A stretch of DNA of 64,000 nucleotides from Microbacterium rhizosphaerae. Lineage in GTDB: Bacteria > Actinomycetota > Actinomycetes > Actinomycetales > Microbacteriaceae. The number at the start of each line of letters is the position of its first letter. Positions within the stretch are counted from its first letter, which is position 1. The stretch spans positions 3,348,001 to 3,412,000 of the forward strand of contig NZ_CP139368.1 of NCBI RefSeq assembly GCF_034120055.1, in the 5' to 3' direction. Below are positions 5,285 through 39,490 of the stretch, in pieces. The notes below the pieces were generated by a model that was given only the letters and a program-made list of their open reading frames with translations, ran no database searches and was not told where the DNA came from. The position numbers were made by a program, and so were the translations under genes.

Positions 5285-5327
5285 GAACTTCCTTTCAGAG
5301 AGCGTCGTCTGCCCATCGAGGGCGTGA

Positions 5328-6110
5328 TCACGCACCCTGCGCGGAGGTCGCGTGCTTCCGCATGATCGCGTCGACGCGCAGGGTGAGGTCGGATGAGCCC
5401 ACCTGCAGGTCCCGCAACGGCGTGTCGAGGTCGGCTCCATAGAAGAGCTTCGCGGCGCTGATGTGCTCCGCCATCACGCGGGCGGCGCCGGCTGCATCGC
5501 CGACGGAGATGCGCTCGAAGAGCACGCCGTGCAGTTCCGCCCCGACGACATGCTCGTCGGTGAGGCTCCGGACCATCATCTGATGCGCGAGCGTGGAGAT
5601 CGACGAGAACATCACCTGGAGCACCGGGTTGTGCGACGCGTCCGCGATCGCCGTGTGGAACGCGAGATCGAAATCCGCGGCAGTCCGGAGCGGGGCGCTC
5701 TCCAGCTCCGCGAGGGCCATCGCGAGCCGTTCGAGGTCCTCCTGGGTGCGGTTGGCGGCAGCCAGCGCGGCGGTGTTCGTCTCGAGCATTTCTCTGGCTG
5801 CGATGAGGTGCCGAGCGGTCACCAGCCCGGTCCGCGAGAGCAGTTCCGGGCTCGCACCGTCATCCTTGGGGTCCATCTCCCTGACGAAGCTGCCTCGGCC
5901 GAGAGACACCTCGATCAGCCCCCGCTCTCGAAGGACGCGCAGGGACTCGCGCACCAGGGAGCGGCCGACGGAGAACCGGGTCATCAGCTCGCGTTCCGAG
6001 GGAAGCTTCACGCCAGGAGCGAGCCGCCCGGAGACGATGTCGTCTTCCAGCGTGGACACGATGAACGGCAATCCCCAGATCTTCGATGGGGCTCCTTCGG
6101 CAGGATTCAT
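5328..6110 (-). CDS. GntR-family repressor, FCD subfamily, of the sugar-oxidation operon
   Basis: About 260 aa. The ATG at 6110 follows AAGGAGTTCCCG. The winged helix (IVSGRLAPGVKLPSERELMTR, FSVGRSLVRESLRVLRERGL) is the canonical FadR-like reading head. The C-terminal FCD domain has AFHTAIADASHNPVL and a late His (AEHISAAKLF), the usual metal/ligand pocket. It is divergent from the dehydratase operon at 6269, and a near-perfect FadR-type palindrome (6185-6201) lies between. It probably represses both directions and is induced by an aldonate or keto-deoxy acid from the pathway. Confidence 0.88.
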   Translation of the reverse strand: MNPAEGAPSKIWGLPFIVSTLEDDIVSGRLAPGVKLPSERELMTRFSVGRSLVRESLRVLRERGLIEVSLGRGSFVREMDPKDDGASPELLSRTGLVTARHLIAAREMLETNTAALAAANRTQEDLERLAMALAELESAPLRTAADFDLAFHTAIADASHNPVLQVMFSSISTLAHQMMVRSLTDEHVVGAELHGVLFERISVGDAAGAARVMAEHISAAKLFYGADLDTPLRDLQVGSSDLTLRVDAIMRKHATSAQGA

Positions 6111-33583: not shown

Positions 33584-33789
33584 GCGAGATTCCGCTGCAC
33601 CCGTCGAGGACTCTCGCGTTCGTGATCATGCACCGCCGGCCGCGGCGGCCCGAAGCCTGACATCCGTGGGCGGCGCGGGAACCGGCCGATGCGCCTGGCC
33701 GATCGCGGGCGTATCCTGATACCGGATGGCCCAGACCCTGTCATCGGCGCGACTATCCTGCGCGCGCCGCAGTGGACAGGGGTATCTCC

Positions 33790-34890
33790 ATGACCGTCAT
33801 TCCGTCGGGCCAGGGTCGATCGACAGTTCGATCGACGATGCCCAAGACGCCCAACAGTTACACCGAGCTGTCACAGCGGGTGACTGCGAGCGGCCTCATG
33901 CGGCGTCGCTACGGGTATTACTGGACCAAGCTCGTCGCGGCTCCCGTGGCCATGGCGGCCGCGCTCGTTATCTTCGTCGTCATCGGCAACACGTGGTGGC
34001 AGCTGTTCACGGCCGCCGGCCTCGCCATCCTGTTCACGCAGATCGCGATGCTCGGTCATGACGCCGCTCACCGGCAGATCTTCCGCTCCGGTCGATGGAA
34101 CGACTGGACGACGCTCGTCATCGGCAACCTGCTCGTCGGCATGAGCTACGGCTGGTGGCAGCACAAGCACACACGGCACCATGCGAACCCGAACAAGGTG
34201 GGCGCCGACCCCGATATCGAGCTTCCGGTGATCTCCTTCACACCCGATCAGGCGGCTCGGCGACGCGAGTCCCGCTGGTTGGGCCTGGGATGGCTGATGG
34301 CGCACCAGGGCCTGTTCTTCTTCCCGATCCTGCTGTTGGAAGGCTTGTCGCTGCACGCGTCGAGCATCCACCGCGTCTTCTCGCGTGAGCCGCTGCGGCG
34401 CCGATGGGTCGAGATCCTCTTCATCTCGATTCGTCTCGTCTTGTTCCCACTGCTGGTGTTCCTCGTGCTGTCCCCCGGAATCGCATTCGCGTTCCTCGGC
34501 GTGCAGCTCGGACTGTTCGGGGTGTACATGGGAATGGCATTCGCGCCGAACCACAAGGGCATGCCGATCGTTCCCGCCGACGTCAAGGTCGACTTCCTGC
34601 GACGCCAGGTGCTGATGAGCCGCAACATCCGCGGCAACCGGATGCTGGACACGATGATGGGCGGCCTGAACTACCAGATCGAGCACCACCTCTTCCCTTC
34701 CATGCCGAGGCCCCACCTGCGCGCCGCATCCGACATGATCGAGCAGTACTGCCGAGACAAGGGCGTCGCGTACACGCAGACCGGGCTGTGGGAGTCATAC
34801 GGGATCGTGGTGCGCTACATCAATCGCGTCGGGCTGGGCGAGCGGGATCCGTTCGAGTGTCCGCTCCTCGTCCAGCGGCAGACCGTGTAG
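33790..34890 (+). CDS. Membrane fatty acid desaturase
   Basis: 366 aa from ATG 33790, preceded by AGGGG; a GTG at 33772 is in frame. The three di-iron histidine boxes are GHDAAHRQ, HKHTRHH and QIEHHLFP, with hydrophobic pairs around them (VAAPVAMAAALVIFVVIG, LVLFPLLVFLVLS). QxxHH in the third box is the front-end/acyl-lipid class, such as DesA3-like enzymes in actinobacteria. It introduces a double bond into membrane acyl chains using a reductase partner; none is adjacent. Confidence 0.9.
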   Translation: MTVIPSGQGRSTVRSTMPKTPNSYTELSQRVTASGLMRRRYGYYWTKLVAAPVAMAAALVIFVVIGNTWWQLFTAAGLAILFTQIAMLGHDAAHRQIFRSGRWNDWTTLVIGNLLVGMSYGWWQHKHTRHHANPNKVGADPDIELPVISFTPDQAARRRESRWLGLGWLMAHQGLFFFPILLLEGLSLHASSIHRVFSREPLRRRWVEILFISIRLVLFPLLVFLVLSPGIAFAFLGVQLGLFGVYMGMAFAPNHKGMPIVPADVKVDFLRRQVLMSRNIRGNRMLDTMMGGLNYQIEHHLFPSMPRPHLRAASDMIEQYCRDKGVAYTQTGLWESYGIVVRYINRVGLGERDPFECPLLVQRQTV

Positions 34891-34933: not shown

Positions 34934-35647
34934 TCACAGATCGACGCGGCCCGCGATGACATCAGCCGCGACGACACTGATGCGAGCCTGCGTGGAGCGG
35001 GCGCGCTTGCGGATTCGCGCGAACGCCTCATCCATGTCGATATTCAGCCGCTGAGCGAGGTATCCCTTCGCCTGTTCGATCACCACGCGGCTGTCCAGTG
35101 CGCGCTGGAGCTGAGCCTGGGCGAGCTCGGACTCCTCGACCAGCCGCTGCTGGAGGATGCTGATGGTCGCGATGTCGGCCAGAGCCTGCGCCGCGGCGGC
35201 GTCGGCTGCATTGAGCACCCCGGGTTCGTCGCGCAGGAGGTTGAGCGATCCCAGCGTCGATTCCCGCAGCCGCATCGGAATCGCGTGAATGGATGCGAAC
35301 CCCGAGGCCCGGGCATCGGCCGCGAACGCAGGCCAGCGGTCGGCGATGTGGTCGATGTCGGCCACCGACACGACCTGGCCGGTCGTCGCTGCTTCCACAC
35401 AGGGGCCGGCACCGGCCCTCAGCTGCATCAGCTCGACGAGCTCGCTTCGCTCGCTGGTGGAGACGATCACCTCGAGCTTGTTCGACCGGCTCAGGAGCAG
35501 GATCCCCGCCGCGGACGCGTCGAAGAGCGAGATGCACTCGTCGACGAGGCGCTGGAGCACGTCGACGACGTCGAAGTCGTCGACCAGCGAATCGGCCAGG
35601 GCGACGAAGGTTCCCAGCAGGTGATGCTCGCGCGTGAGCGCCGTCAT
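34934..35647 (-). CDS. GAF-ANTAR transcription antiterminator
   Basis: 237 aa. An N-terminal GAF sensor (DASAAGILLLSRSNKLEVIVST, GAGPCVEAATTGQVVSVADI) is followed by an ANTAR RNA-binding helix bundle (RALDSRVVIEQAKGYLAQRLNIDMDEAFARIRKRAR). ANTAR proteins bind paired hexaloop hairpins in nascent mRNA and stop termination. The signal and target RNA are unknown. A second, distinct GAF-ANTAR gene follows 24 bp away. Confidence 0.9.
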   Translation of the reverse strand: MTALTREHHLLGTFVALADSLVDDFDVVDVLQRLVDECISLFDASAAGILLLSRSNKLEVIVSTSERSELVELMQLRAGAGPCVEAATTGQVVSVADIDHIADRWPAFAADARASGFASIHAIPMRLRESTLGSLNLLRDEPGVLNAADAAAAQALADIATISILQQRLVEESELAQAQLQRALDSRVVIEQAKGYLAQRLNIDMDEAFARIRKRARSTQARISVVAADVIAGRVDL

Positions 35648-35671
35648 GGCGTCATCCTAAGCCTTGGCCCG

Positions 35672-36376
35672 TCACAGGTTCAGATCGAGCCGCCGCGCGA
35701 TGACGTCGACGGCCACGTCGCGCACCGGTCGGCCCGCCGCGTATGCGTGGCCGCGCAGGAGCAGGAGGGCATCGTCCACGCCGATCCCGTTCCTGGCCGC
35801 GACCATGCCGGTCGCCTGGTGCACCTCGCGGCGCGAGTAGGGCCCGTTCTCCGCGTCGCCGTCTGCCGCCTCGAGTCGGCTCAATGCGCGCCGGAGGAGA
35901 GTGCGGGAGACGATGCCGGCGAGCGTGCTCAGTCCTGCGATGTCGGCATCCGACAACTCGCGGGCGGCCATCGAGTAGAGGGCGATGGACCCGATGCCGA
36001 CCGCGCCGACGAACAGCGGGAACGCGTAGAGCGACCCCACATCGAGTTCGCGCAAAGCCGCCCACGCGCCCGGCCACAGCACTCCCCCGTCGACCTGGAT
36101 GTCGGATGCCGCCACGGGCCGCCTCGTGCGCAGCGCCTCCCACGATGGGCCCTCACCGAGGTCGATCTGGATCTCGTCGATCCGTGCGCCGAGACGCGTG
36201 CTGGCGCACACGGTCTCCGAACCCATCGGCGACCCGAGCGTCGAGATCACCGCGCCCGGCATCGAGACGACCGCCCGCAGCGGCGAGCACAGGTCGTCGC
36301 CTTCTCCGGCGATGAGTGCGGCGGCGGCGATCGAGAACGCGTCGCGTGGTGGGTCGTCGCCGACTGTGCTGGACAT
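35672..36376 (-). CDS. GAF-ANTAR transcription antiterminator (paralogue)
   Basis: 234 aa. The GAF domain includes QIDLGEGPSWEALRTRRPVAASDI and SLYAFPLFVGAVGIGSIALYS; the ANTAR part is VHQATGMVAARNGIGVDDALLLLRGHAY. It is upstream of, and in the same orientation as, the 34934-35647 gene, so the two are probably co-expressed and could sense different signals or heterodimerise. The ANTAR helix is less canonical than in its neighbour. Confidence 0.85.
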   Translation of the reverse strand: MSSTVGDDPPRDAFSIAAAALIAGEGDDLCSPLRAVVSMPGAVISTLGSPMGSETVCASTRLGARIDEIQIDLGEGPSWEALRTRRPVAASDIQVDGGVLWPGAWAALRELDVGSLYAFPLFVGAVGIGSIALYSMAARELSDADIAGLSTLAGIVSRTLLRRALSRLEAADGDAENGPYSRREVHQATGMVAARNGIGVDDALLLLRGHAYAAGRPVRDVAVDVIARRLDLNL

Positions 36377-36533
36377 CCCTCCCCGCCGTTCGCATCGGAA
36401 TGGTGCAGGCGCTGGGTCTAGGTGCCCTCATCGTGATCGTACACCGCGTCCGCGCATCTGAGCCGAGCACGAGAACTCCGCGCAACCGGGGCCTCGCGTC
36501 GTGCCGGTCGCTGTCTGGCGCTCGTCCGTAAAT

Positions 36534-36548
36534 GCTAGATAAGCTAGC
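36534..36548. promoter_or_regulatory. Shared palindromic operator, site A (MFS gene)
   Basis: GCTAGATAAGCTAGC has 7-bp arms around one base with a single mismatch pair, 28 bp before the MFS start. A further half-site (TTAGCT) follows at 36551. Its reverse complement occurs exactly at 39132-39146, ahead of the secreted peptide. Confidence 0.8.
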
Positions 36549-36576
36549 TATTAGCTGAACAAGCGAAAGGGCGACC

Positions 36577-38220
36577 ATGTCGGATGCAGCATCACGGACC
36601 TCGTCATCCAGGTGGGCGGGGCTCGTCTTCATCAGCCTCGCGGTGTCGCTGATCATCGTCGACTCGACGATCGTCAACGTCGCCGTGCCGCAGATCGTCG
36701 ACGAGCTCTCGCTCTCCTCCACCCAGGTGCAGTGGGTGCAGGAGGCGTACACCCTGGTGTTCGCCTCGCTGCTGCTCGCGTTCGGATCATTGGCGGATCG
36801 GGTCGGGCGACGGCGGATGCTCGTGATCGGCACGCTGATCTTCACGGTGTCGTCGCTGTTCGCAGCGCTCGCTCCGTCCGGCGAGCTGCTCATCGCCGCC
36901 CGGGTGATCCAGGGTGTCGGCGGTGCGATGATGCTTCCGACCACGCTCGCGCTCATCAACGCGACCTTCCACGGCCGCGAACGCGGTCTGGCATTCGCCG
37001 TCTGGGGCTCGACGATCGGAGGGATGGCCGCCGTCGGCCCGCTGCTCGGCGGATGGCTGACGACCGCGTACTCCTGGCGACTCGCGTTCGGGATCAACAT
37101 CCCGCTCGGCATCCTGATCGCCATCGGGGTGCAGGTGACCGTCGCCGAGTCGAAGGACCCGAACGCGCGACGCGTCGATGCGATGTCGGCGGTCCTCTCC
37201 GTGATCACGTTCGCCTCGCTCGTGTTCGGTCTCATCGAAGGGCGGACGCTCGGATGGTGGCGCATCGACAAGCCGTTCACGATCGGACAGTGGACGTGGC
37301 CCTGGGACCTCTCGCCGGTTCCCGTCGCCTTCTTCCTCTCCGCGATCGCGGCGGGCGCGTTCATCATGCGCGGGCTGCGCCGGCAGAAGGCCGGAAAGTC
37401 GACGATGCTGGCGTTCGACCTGTTCCGGATCCCGAGCTTCCGCAACGGCAATCTCGTCGCGATGGTCGTCTCGCTCGGCGAGTTCGGCATCATCCTCGCG
37501 CTGCCGCTCTGGCTGCAGTTCGTGCTCGGGTTCGAGGCCGTGCAGACCGGGCTCATCCTGCTGGCCCTCGCCGGCGGATCGTTCGCCGCCAGTGCACTGA
37601 CGGCGCCGCTGAGCGGCCGCATCCCCCCGCCGACAATGGTGCGCTGGGGCCTTGTCGCCGAGATCGTGGGGATCGTCGGCCTCGCCGTGATGGTCCATCC
37701 GGATGCGAACTGGGTGACGCTGCTGCCCGGACTGTTCGTCTACGGCCTCGGCGTGGGACTGGCCACCGCGCAGCTGACCGGCGTCGTGCTCACCGACGTG
37801 CCTGTGACGCAGAGCGGCCAGGGATCGGGAACGCAGTCCACCGCTCGCCAGGTGGGATCGGCGCTCGGCATCGCCATCCTCGGCACGATCCTGTTCACCG
37901 TGACCGGTGGGATCCTGGCCGCCGACCTCGCCGACAAGGGGGTGCCGTCCGACCAGGCGAAGCAGGTCGTATCGGCCGTCGTCGACAGCGCCGGCGCAGC
38001 GATCCCCGGGCTGCGCGGCTCGCCGACCACCGCGCCGCTGGCGGCCGCGGCGGAAGACGCGTTCTCGACCGGCACCCGGCTCGCCGCCTTCTCCGCCGCC
38101 GCCTTCCTCGCCCTCGGCCTGCTCGCGACAGGATCGTTGCGCACGCGACGTCCGCAGGTGTCTGCGCGCGACGACGAGGACGCTCAACCCACGCCCGAGG
38201 ACGTCCCGGCGACAGAGTGA
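36577..38220 (+). CDS. MFS drug/metabolite exporter, DHA2 (EmrB/QacA) family
   Basis: 547 aa, about 14 membrane segments. Motifs: DSTIVNVAVPQIVDEL in helix 1, GSLADRVGRRRML (motif A), ARVIQGVGGAMMLPTTLALI (motif C-like), and GSTIGGMAAVGPLLGG. A C-terminal Asp/Glu-rich tail is cytoplasmic. It is a proton-driven exporter. An operator palindrome immediately upstream is shared with the GTP cyclohydrolase II and secreted-peptide promoters, tying its cargo to those products. No adjacent TetR or MarR gene is present, although many DHA2 exporters have one. Confidence 0.9.
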   Translation: MSDAASRTSSSRWAGLVFISLAVSLIIVDSTIVNVAVPQIVDELSLSSTQVQWVQEAYTLVFASLLLAFGSLADRVGRRRMLVIGTLIFTVSSLFAALAPSGELLIAARVIQGVGGAMMLPTTLALINATFHGRERGLAFAVWGSTIGGMAAVGPLLGGWLTTAYSWRLAFGINIPLGILIAIGVQVTVAESKDPNARRVDAMSAVLSVITFASLVFGLIEGRTLGWWRIDKPFTIGQWTWPWDLSPVPVAFFLSAIAAGAFIMRGLRRQKAGKSTMLAFDLFRIPSFRNGNLVAMVVSLGEFGIILALPLWLQFVLGFEAVQTGLILLALAGGSFAASALTAPLSGRIPPPTMVRWGLVAEIVGIVGLAVMVHPDANWVTLLPGLFVYGLGVGLATAQLTGVVLTDVPVTQSGQGSGTQSTARQVGSALGIAILGTILFTVTGGILAADLADKGVPSDQAKQVVSAVVDSAGAAIPGLRGSPTTAPLAAAAEDAFSTGTRLAAFSAAAFLALGLLATGSLRTRRPQVSARDDEDAQPTPEDVPATE

Positions 38221-38274
38221 CCCTCGAGCCCGTGACCTCTGATCCGGGCGCCGTCTTGCTGTCCGAGACAATTC

Positions 38275-38312
38275 CTAGCTAAGCTAGCTACATCGCAAAC
38301 TAGCTAAACCAG
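38275..38312. promoter_or_regulatory. Shared palindromic operator, site B (ribA-like gene)
   Basis: CTAGCTAAGCTAG (38275-38287) is a perfect 13-bp palindrome. A second, weaker copy, CTAGCTAAACCAG (38300-38312), matches 11 of 13 and starts 25 bp further on. It lies between the MFS stop and the GTP cyclohydrolase II start, so that gene has its own promoter instead of only reading through. Confidence 0.8.
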
Positions 38313-38389
38313 CGGAAATATGTTGGACGGTTCGGTCCTTGAACTTCTCCACAACCGACCAGCGCCCGCATCGAACGCGAGGAGAGGCC

Positions 38390-39055
38390 ATGCTGACACT
38401 GCACGAAGGGCGAGGGACGACCGCCGCCGCAAGCATCCGAACCGCTGTCACCGTCCCGATCCGCTTCCCCGACGGCTACGCCACGGTCGCGCGGGTCCTG
38501 ACGTTCGAAGGCCTCGCCGACGGACGCGAGCATCTGCTGCTCGCGTTCGGCGATGCGTGGACCGAAGACGGGGCCGTGGATCCGGGGCCGTCCCCCCTGG
38601 TGCGGCTGCACAGCGAATGCCTCACCGGCGACGTATTCGGCTCGGAGCGCTGCGACTGCGGACCCCAGCTCCGCGAGGCAGTCGAAGCGCTCGAGCGGGA
38701 GGGCGGCCTGCTCCTGTACCTGCGCCAGGAAGGGCGGGGCATCGGCCTGTACTCGAAGCTGGATGCCTACGCGCTGCAGGATGCCGGACTCGACACCTAC
38801 GAGGCCAACCTCGCCCTCGGCCACGACGCGGACGAGCGCGACTACACGTGCGCCGCGCAGATGCTGGCGGCGGTGGGCGTCGAGAGCGTGCGCCTGTTCA
38901 CGAACAACCCGGACAAGTCCGGGCAGCTGCGCGATCTGGGTATCGGAGTGGATGCCGTCATCCCCACTGCCGTCCATCTCACTCCCGCGAACGCCCGTTA
39001 CCTGCAGGCCAAGCGGGACCGCACCGGCCATCACCTCGACCTCCCCGCCGCCTGA
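38390..39055 (+). CDS. ribA: Stand-alone GTP cyclohydrolase II
   Basis: 221 aa; ATG 38390 is preceded by GAGGAGAGG. The zinc cysteines are in HSECLTGDVFGSERCDCG, and the catalytic region is LLYLRQEGRGIGLYSKLDAYALQD, followed by FTNNPDKSGQLRDLGI. The enzyme opens GTP to the pyrimidine precursor of riboflavin. Actinobacterial riboflavin operons usually carry a RibBA fusion, and no other rib gene is near here, so this copy may serve stress supply or a specialised GTP-derived product. It shares its operator with the neighbouring exporter and secreted peptide. Confidence 0.9.
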   Translation: MLTLHEGRGTTAAASIRTAVTVPIRFPDGYATVARVLTFEGLADGREHLLLAFGDAWTEDGAVDPGPSPLVRLHSECLTGDVFGSERCDCGPQLREAVEALEREGGLLLYLRQEGRGIGLYSKLDAYALQDAGLDTYEANLALGHDADERDYTCAAQMLAAVGVESVRLFTNNPDKSGQLRDLGIGVDAVIPTAVHLTPANARYLQAKRDRTGHHLDLPAA

Positions 39056-39109
39056 GCGCCGCGGGCAGAGCCGGCCCCTCGGGGAAATGTCGACGACTTT
39101 CGGAATTTA

Positions 39110-39146
39110 CTAGCTTAGCTAGCGATTTTTCGCTAGCTTATCTAGC
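39110..39146. promoter_or_regulatory. Shared palindromic operators, sites C1 and C2 (peptide gene)
   Basis: C1 CTAGCTTAGCTAG (39110-39122) is the exact reverse complement of site B. C2 GCTAGCTTATCTAGC (39132-39146) is the exact reverse complement of site A. The two are 23 bp apart, close to two helical turns, and together form a further stem (AGCTAGCGA/TCGCTAGCT). They lie 41 bp upstream of the peptide start. Confidence 0.82.
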
Positions 39147-39186
39147 GAAGCACGGTGTCGTGCATTCCGAGAGAAGGGTTCCAGCA

Positions 39187-39423
39187 ATGCGTAAGAAGTT
39201 CATGATGGCGATCTGTGCCGGTGCGTTGGTCGCGGGCGCGGCGATGGCGACGCCGAGCGCCGCCCTGGCGGACGGCTACGGCGTCCAGATCAACGACGGA
39301 TGCGGCGCCACCTACGGCCAGCTCGTCTCCGAGGCACGGCAGATCGGCCACATCAGCGGCGGCGTGCACGGCGCGGCGTACTGGATCAACAGCGGCCTCG
39401 CCGCCGCCCACGGCTGCAGCTGA
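39187..39423 (+). CDS. Small secreted two-cysteine peptide
   Basis: 78 aa; ATG 39187 with GAGAAGGG upstream. A Sec signal (RKK, then FMMAICAGALVAGAAMA) should be cut after ALA, leaving a mature ~50-residue peptide beginning DGYGVQINDG. It has only two cysteines, at mature positions about 11 (DGCGATY) and 49 (HGCS, near the C-terminus), which could close a disulfide loop over almost the entire chain. It is rich in Gly, Ala and His with one Trp. I recognise no family. Twin operators and a terminator make it a stand-alone, regulated transcription unit. A bacteriocin, signal or cell-wall peptide is possible. Confidence 0.78.
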   Translation: MRKKFMMAICAGALVAGAAMATPSAALADGYGVQINDGCGATYGQLVSEARQIGHISGGVHGAAYWINSGLAAAHGCS

Positions 39424-39449
39424 GCCAGACAGCAGCACGCCGGGGGGAG

Positions 39450-39490
39450 ACGCCCGCCGATCGAGCCCGAGGCTCTCGGCGGGCGTTCTC
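39450..39490 (+). terminator. Rho-independent terminator after peptide gene
   Basis: ACGCCCGCCGA and TCGGCGGGCGT form a perfect 11-bp stem with a 15-nt loop, ending in TTCTCATT. It sits 27 bp after the peptide stop. Confidence 0.75.

Follow-up and report, generated by a model that had tools for sequence, protein, structure and literature searches.

A CTAGC-NNN-GCTAG palindrome shared by three promoters of Microbacterium rhizosphaerae is a predicted operator of a CrtR-like MarR regulator

The closest described counterpart of the system treated here is the MarR-type regulator CrtR of Corynebacterium glutamicum. According to the available portion of the respective report (PMC5401885), it represses the crt operon including an RND exporter gene and probably also a secreted-lipoprotein gene, and its DNA binding is hindered in vitro by isoprenoid pyrophosphates, most strongly by geranylgeranyl pyrophosphate (GGPP). 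As far as the accessible text of a second study goes, GGPP-sensitive DNA binding has been reported for CrtR of six actinobacteria, and mmpL genes are presumed CrtR targets (PMC7432914). Both this kind of regulator and a carotenoid regulon of small size have already been described for C. glutamicum, as given in the available part of PMC5401885. Here, we analyze a stretch of 64,000 nucleotides from M. rhizosphaerae (contig NZ_CP139368.1, positions 3,348,001 to 3,412,000, further called the window), in which the promoters of a DHA2 exporter gene, a gene for a stand-alone GTP cyclohydrolase II (GCHII) and a gene for an orphan secreted peptide share one palindrome. We propose, with a probability of roughly 0.8, that a CrtR-like MarR repressor uses these palindromes as operators, the likeliest candidate in the own genome being a protein encoded outside of the window (paralog A, G000:C1:1717619-1718137).

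Judged from the available portions of the reports on CrtR of C. glutamicum and its orthologs (PMC5401885, PMC7432914, PMC6739363), the common features are a winged-helix regulator of the MarR_2 type beside crt, idi or mmpL genes and, for C. glutamicum, a palindromic operator of about 15 bp at the promoter. Among the targets described there are the RND exporter cg0722 and the secreted lipoprotein cg0726, which resemble the exporter and the peptide of the window. As far as described, the C. glutamicum regulon consists of one locus with perhaps one site and a TTAA core, whereas the operator observed here is CTAGC-NNN-GCTAG and occurs at several unlinked promoters (DHA2 exporter, stand-alone GCHII, orphan peptide), and the genome contains two CrtR-like paralogs. 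A partial parallel is offered by the LitR light regulon of Pseudomonas mendocina, for which the available text lists the GTP cyclohydrolase gene folE (GCH I) among the light-induced genes; it differs by its LitR/CarH-type regulator and by containing GCH I, whereas the enzyme here is GCHII (PMC9758184). Within the open-licence PMC literature, neither the CTAGC-NNN-GCTAG operator nor DHA2, TspO, GCHII or peptide targets were found in print, no paper combined CrtR, GTP cyclohydrolase II and MarR, and CrtR, MmpL and Microbacterium occurred together only in PMC5401885. The 13-mer described below is printed in one Staphylococcus aureus paper of the same collection, as far as its accessible text goes.

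Searching the window for CTAGCTWAGCTAG with up to two mismatches returned five sites (36535, 38275, 38300, 39110 and 39133), whereas 100 shuffles gave 0.06 on average. Operator 1 (36534..36548, + strand, GCTAGATAAGCTAGC) precedes the exporter gene and contains a TANNNT-like hexamer, TAAGCT. The GCHII gene is preceded by operator 2a (38274..38288, +, CCTAGCTAAGCTAGC) and, 25 bp from it, the degenerate operator 2b (38299..38313, +, ACTAGCTAAACCAGC), and the peptide gene by operators 3a (39109..39123, +, ACTAGCTTAGCTAGC) and 3b (39132..39146, +, GCTAGCTTATCTAGC) at a distance of 23 bp. The 15-mer at 36534 recurs as its exact reverse complement at 39132, and the 13-mer CTAGCTAAGCTAG at 38275 recurs in the same manner at 39110. 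An earlier note on this DNA, made from the letters alone, had claimed a palindrome shared by three promoters, with both variants exactly reverse-complemented before the peptide, and gene starts at 36577, 38390 and 39187. The sites lie where it had placed them, far beyond chance, the inverted variants were confirmed, and the starts are reasonable; all boxes listed there are real, and only the weaker operator 2b had been overlooked.

In the whole genome of 4.06 Mb, CTAGCTWAGCTAG with up to two mismatches is found at eight places, i.e., the five in the window and three others at 378371 and 1720777 (up to one mismatch) and 2318393 (two mismatches), compared to 256 matches of the same pattern read backwards. 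With only these three places outside of the window, the motif is not scattered, as the genome-wide scan suggested by the earlier note was to reveal. The related pattern GCTAGN5CTAGC with up to one mismatch occurs 13 times vs. 1885 times for the backwards version. The tetramer CTAG is generally scarce, with 17 copies in the 64-kb window vs. 624 of GATC, and 9 of these 17 copies fall inside the three promoters. An origin of the palindromes by chance or as a scattered repeat was rejected on the basis of the shuffles, the backwards-pattern counts and the scarcity of CTAG. One of the other matches (G000:C1:378370, loci L003/L035) is a perfect-arm box, GCTAGCTAGGCTAGC, upstream of an SDR/NmrA-like DUF2867 gene and separated from its start codon by 3 nt. 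Judged by its box, this gene is likely a further regulon member in the own genome.

The best match in the own genome to the idi-adjacent MarR protein of a congener is paralog A, a protein of 172 amino acids encoded 1.67 Mb from the window, in agreement with the previous assumption that the regulator is encoded elsewhere. It contains a MarR_2 domain at residues 64-119 (PF12802, E 2.3e-14, 53.7 bits vs. a cut-off of 27). Its gene is convergent with an MMPL gene, whose 3' end lies 0.4 kb away with one small gene between, and thus has one of the neighbors typical for a CrtR-type regulator (crt/idi or mmpL). The published CrtR genes are divergent from their neighbor, in contrast to the paralog A gene. 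The promoter of the own MMPL gene carries the exact 15-mer GCTAGATAAGCTAGC (G000:C1:1720776), 2.6 kb from the paralog A gene, and the identical 15-mer stands before many MMPL and DHA2 genes of congeners. Searching genome_contigs with the own MarR protein, from which the best 80 of 264 relatives were kept, we observed a box at most 300 bp upstream of the CrtR-like match in 75 of the 80 loci and a match to IDI in 74. Three of the five boxless loci (L105, L106, L110) contain the box before an MMPL gene, and the other two (L107, L108) have none in the stretch examined. In another collection, 27 of the best 30 loci matching the own MarR protein contain the palindrome just upstream of the regulator gene, the exceptions being the own locus and its two nearest relatives. 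The expectation that a regulator gene would itself carry the motif thus applies to 75 of 80 CrtR-like relatives and fails for the own MarR gene, where the box is found before the adjacent MMPL gene instead. Regulator and site also co-occur, as 172 of 366 genomes contain both an A-type regulator and the site, 3 the regulator only, 48 the site only and 143 neither, with the A- and B-type CrtR-like proteins (see below) separated at an E-value of 1e-36 chosen after seeing the E-values, and the counts taken from related genomes without correction for kinship, so that Fisher's test gives no real probability here. In a phylogenetic tree, paralog A clusters together with the six remaining MMPL-side proteins (those of M. 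mangrovi and ASV49 plus four from Leucobacter) with a support of 100/99 from a bootstrap that is not fully settled; the same group includes L076 of G114, which by eye lies beside idi, so that it is not purely MMPL-side.

The targets of the operator in congeners were compared in 45 site loci, 44 of them distinct (L069 repeats L009), which were taken from among the matches listed at about one per genome and do not represent a random draw; target classes were assigned by comparison with the own proteins, reading of open reading frames and Pfam. The box is found before MMPL genes in 14 of the distinct loci, between divergent crtR and idi genes in another 14, one of which (L019) has a B-type regulator, and before DHA2 exporter genes in 11, which together make up 39 of the 44. 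The rest comprises two TspO/MBR genes (L013, L058), one gene for a polyprenyl/GGPP synthase (L048) and two other genes (L043, L054). The DHA2 exporters behind the same operator share 67–71% identity with the exporter of the window. Because regulator and operator co-locate and co-occur, and the same operator precedes the DHA2 exporters of congeners, the exporter is, by these sequence comparisons, a member of a genus-wide CrtR-type regulon with three widespread targets (crtR/idi, MMPL and DHA2). The two TspO/MBR genes behind the same box (L013, 1518-2354; L058, 1578-2363) represent an unexpected target class.

Several observations weigh against paralog A as the reader of the window sites or against the three promoters as equal members of one regulon. 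The genes of paralog A and of its two closest relatives (G100 and G137, which match the M. mangrovi and ASV49 records) lack the palindrome before themselves and have it before the MMPL gene instead, and 48 of the 191 genomes without an A-type regulator still contain the site. The TTAA core of C. glutamicum is absent from the window boxes, which have CTWAG-type cores, and is found in 3 of 75 congener boxes (GCTAGTTAAACTAGC); for that reason, we call the protein CrtR-like rather than CrtR. No box was present at the other GCHII loci considered (the best 29 of 94, 400 bp upstream each), with GC-rich stretches of two mismatches (GCTCG...) without CTAG at eight of them left uncounted. The peptide boxes of two congeners, G309 and G359, retain the CTAG arms, but not the core of the window boxes. 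Finally, the own genome codes for a second CrtR-like protein of 191 amino acids (paralog B, G000:C1:3182718-3183293), whose gene is divergent from idi and the polyprenyl synthase gene (L034), and proteins of this B type could, to judge from their upstream regions, read or share window-type sites.

We consider it a tentative possibility that paralog B is the main reader of the window sites, either alone or together with paralog A. With its 191 amino acids and a MarR_2 domain at residues 74-128, it is closer than paralog A to C. glutamicum CrtR in length and position of the helix-turn-helix motif, using the published values only (195 amino acids, residues 73-134; available part of PMC5401885). 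Moreover, it guards the idi and carotenoid genes, and some of the 48 genomes containing sites without an A-type protein may be served by B-type proteins. Of a further 30 B-type loci, TAGCTTAGCTA is found upstream in 7, CTAGCN3GCTAG in 4 and neither in 19; one of the four contains the exact CTAGCTAAGCTAG and represents the same place as L019. However, the palindrome of paralog B itself is TACTTGCCTAGCAAGTA (L034, ca. 5294-5376), with CTTGC instead of CTAGC arms, so that each half-site differs by a single base. The exact 15-mer of the window, in contrast, is found in the promoter of the MMPL gene next to paralog A. This arm change suggests that the specificities of the paralogs have diverged.

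A different unlinked regulator of multidrug efflux of the TetR or MarR type, which would read the palindrome and control the carotenoid genes as well, appears quite improbable. Palindromes of this type are usual as operators of MarR and TetR proteins, and in one congener (L010) another MarR-like protein is by eye encoded divergently from the DHA2 exporter, but both the location of the palindrome (75 of 80) and its occurrence follow the CrtR-like gene, at site loci without a systematic search for other regulators. The adjacent IclR proteins of the window (39565 or 40356), which the earlier note had considered as regulators, are very improbable candidates, as they have adjacency only on their side, while the palindrome follows the CrtR-like MarR gene across the genus (with congener loci not searched for IclR genes) and the peptide of G309 and G359 has its boxes in another setting.

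With a CrtR-like repressor, most likely paralog A, acting on these sites, a repressor dimer would lie over the -10 region of every promoter, excluding RNA polymerase, and GGPP or another isoprenoid pyrophosphate would release it, by analogy with the published CrtR, leading to co-induction of the targets. We infer binding, repression and GGPP as a ligand from the published protein, and the physiological purpose would lie in export or in protecting the membrane under a carotenoid/isoprenoid or light-stress state, in which the extra GCHII may boost the first step of the riboflavin pathway. Together with the carotenoid genes, the three window genes probably take part in one membrane or light-stress response. 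In 25 of 28 MMPL and DHA2 promoters, an ATG lies 3–5 nt behind the box. The TAAGCT within the box, or its variant, thereby takes the place expected for a -10 hexamer if transcription is leaderless; the own MMPL gene and the window genes do not have this spacing. A TANNNT consensus for -10 hexamers and leaderless transcription of crtR are given in the available part of PMC5401885. For a CrtR-like clade in Microbacterium, a large genus of actinobacteria, the palindrome would provide a precise, testable operator. The regulon, instead of being confined to one carotenoid locus, would also take in several unlinked exporters, TspO/MBR genes, an additional enzyme of the riboflavin pathway and an orphan secreted peptide.

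The GCHII gene (38390..39055, +) codes for a stand-alone enzyme of 221 amino acids. Its start at 38390 is an ATG after the stretch GAGGAGAG, with a TTG at 38339 as a mechanical alternative. The protein consists of a stand-alone GTP_cyclohydro2 domain (PF00925, E 1.3e-53, scored on the longer version starting at 38339) and scores 254.6 bits with NF001591, above the cut-off of 148, and 192.0 with the equivalog model TIGR00505, below the cut-off of 205.85. Another GCHII domain of the own genome is contained in an open frame of 697 amino acids at G000:C1:1275602. Matches with E-values up to 1e-55 are present in 100 of the 366 Microbacterium genomes, 95 of them (own included) with at least 67% identity and the other five with 50–53% in open frames of 442–662 amino acids; stand-alone GCHII is therefore common, occurring in 94 of 365 congeners. 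Because none of the 29 other loci examined has a box, GCHII appears to have been added to the regulon locally, its box having been found in one genome only to date.

The orphan secreted peptide (39187..39423, +) is made as a precursor of 78 amino acids with two conserved cysteines according to the alignment and a signal peptide recognized by eye, and matched no Pfam or NCBIfam family. It is present in 3 of the 366 Microbacterium genomes (own, G309 and G359), always behind two boxes with 23-bp spacing followed by CTAGCGAAGCAC, the cores of the boxes differing; a box in G309 and G359 lies at the position matching operator 3a. In these two congeners, the peptide gene is flanked on one side by the gene of a 458-aa protein and on the other by genes read as malQ and aldehyde dehydrogenase (the latter two by eye), and is not adjacent to the exporter or GCHII genes. 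The 458-aa protein of G309 belongs to no Pfam family; in the own genome, the gene for its relative is directly followed by the dehydrogenase gene, without the peptide or malQ between. Other perfect-arm boxes are found in G309 before MMPL, crtR/idi and DHA2 genes as well as at 3010919 and 3858436, and in G359 before crtR/idi and DHA2 genes as well as at 3161091. Among 299 Microbacteriaceae genomes, 20 had a peptide match with an E-value up to 0.01, the best non-own one at 3e-4 and nearly all partial, which we took as noise; no relatives were detected in genome_contigs (scanned by pattern, for close relatives), viral_contigs or plasmids, and matches to PHROGs and PDB were not significant.

The regulon appears to be in the process of growing: its core is widespread, the rare peptide retains its pair of boxes in two different genomic settings, and the enzyme has so far been found with a box in one genome. 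The idea of a shared operator and a small regulon is thus supported, and operator conservation in relatives, as foreseen by the earlier note, is clear for the exporter and holds for the peptide as a two-box layout, but not for GCHII (0 of 29 loci). In contrast, the proposed closed response of enzyme, exporter and peptide is not supported, as the window genes are part of a larger regulon and the trio is not conserved as a unit in the loci examined. For the uncharacterized peptide, the boxes offer a first physiological handle. Speculatively, and with considerable doubt, the two boxes plus the secreted cysteine-containing peptide might form a movable cassette, controlled by a CrtR-like repressor that senses isoprenoid pyrophosphates and linking the carotenoid/isoprenoid (perhaps light) state to a secreted signal or antimicrobial peptide; with exporter and GCHII on the same switch, a flavin- or pterin-derived export product would be possible.

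The exporter gene (36577..38220, +) codes for an MFS protein of 547 amino acids of the DHA2 (EmrB/QacA) type, which matches Pfam MFS_1 and belongs to DHA2 by its score of 251.1 bits with TIGR00711 (efflux_EmrB), above the cut-off of 230.2. A fatty acid desaturase gene lies nearby (33772-34890) and has no box with up to two mismatches before it, and two adjacent GAF-ANTAR proteins are encoded on the opposite strand just upstream of the exporter (34934-36376). The MarR-like gene divergent from the DHA2 exporter gene in the congener locus L010 (1566-2030) appears OhrR-like by eye, and the exporter of that congener may have a second regulatory input.

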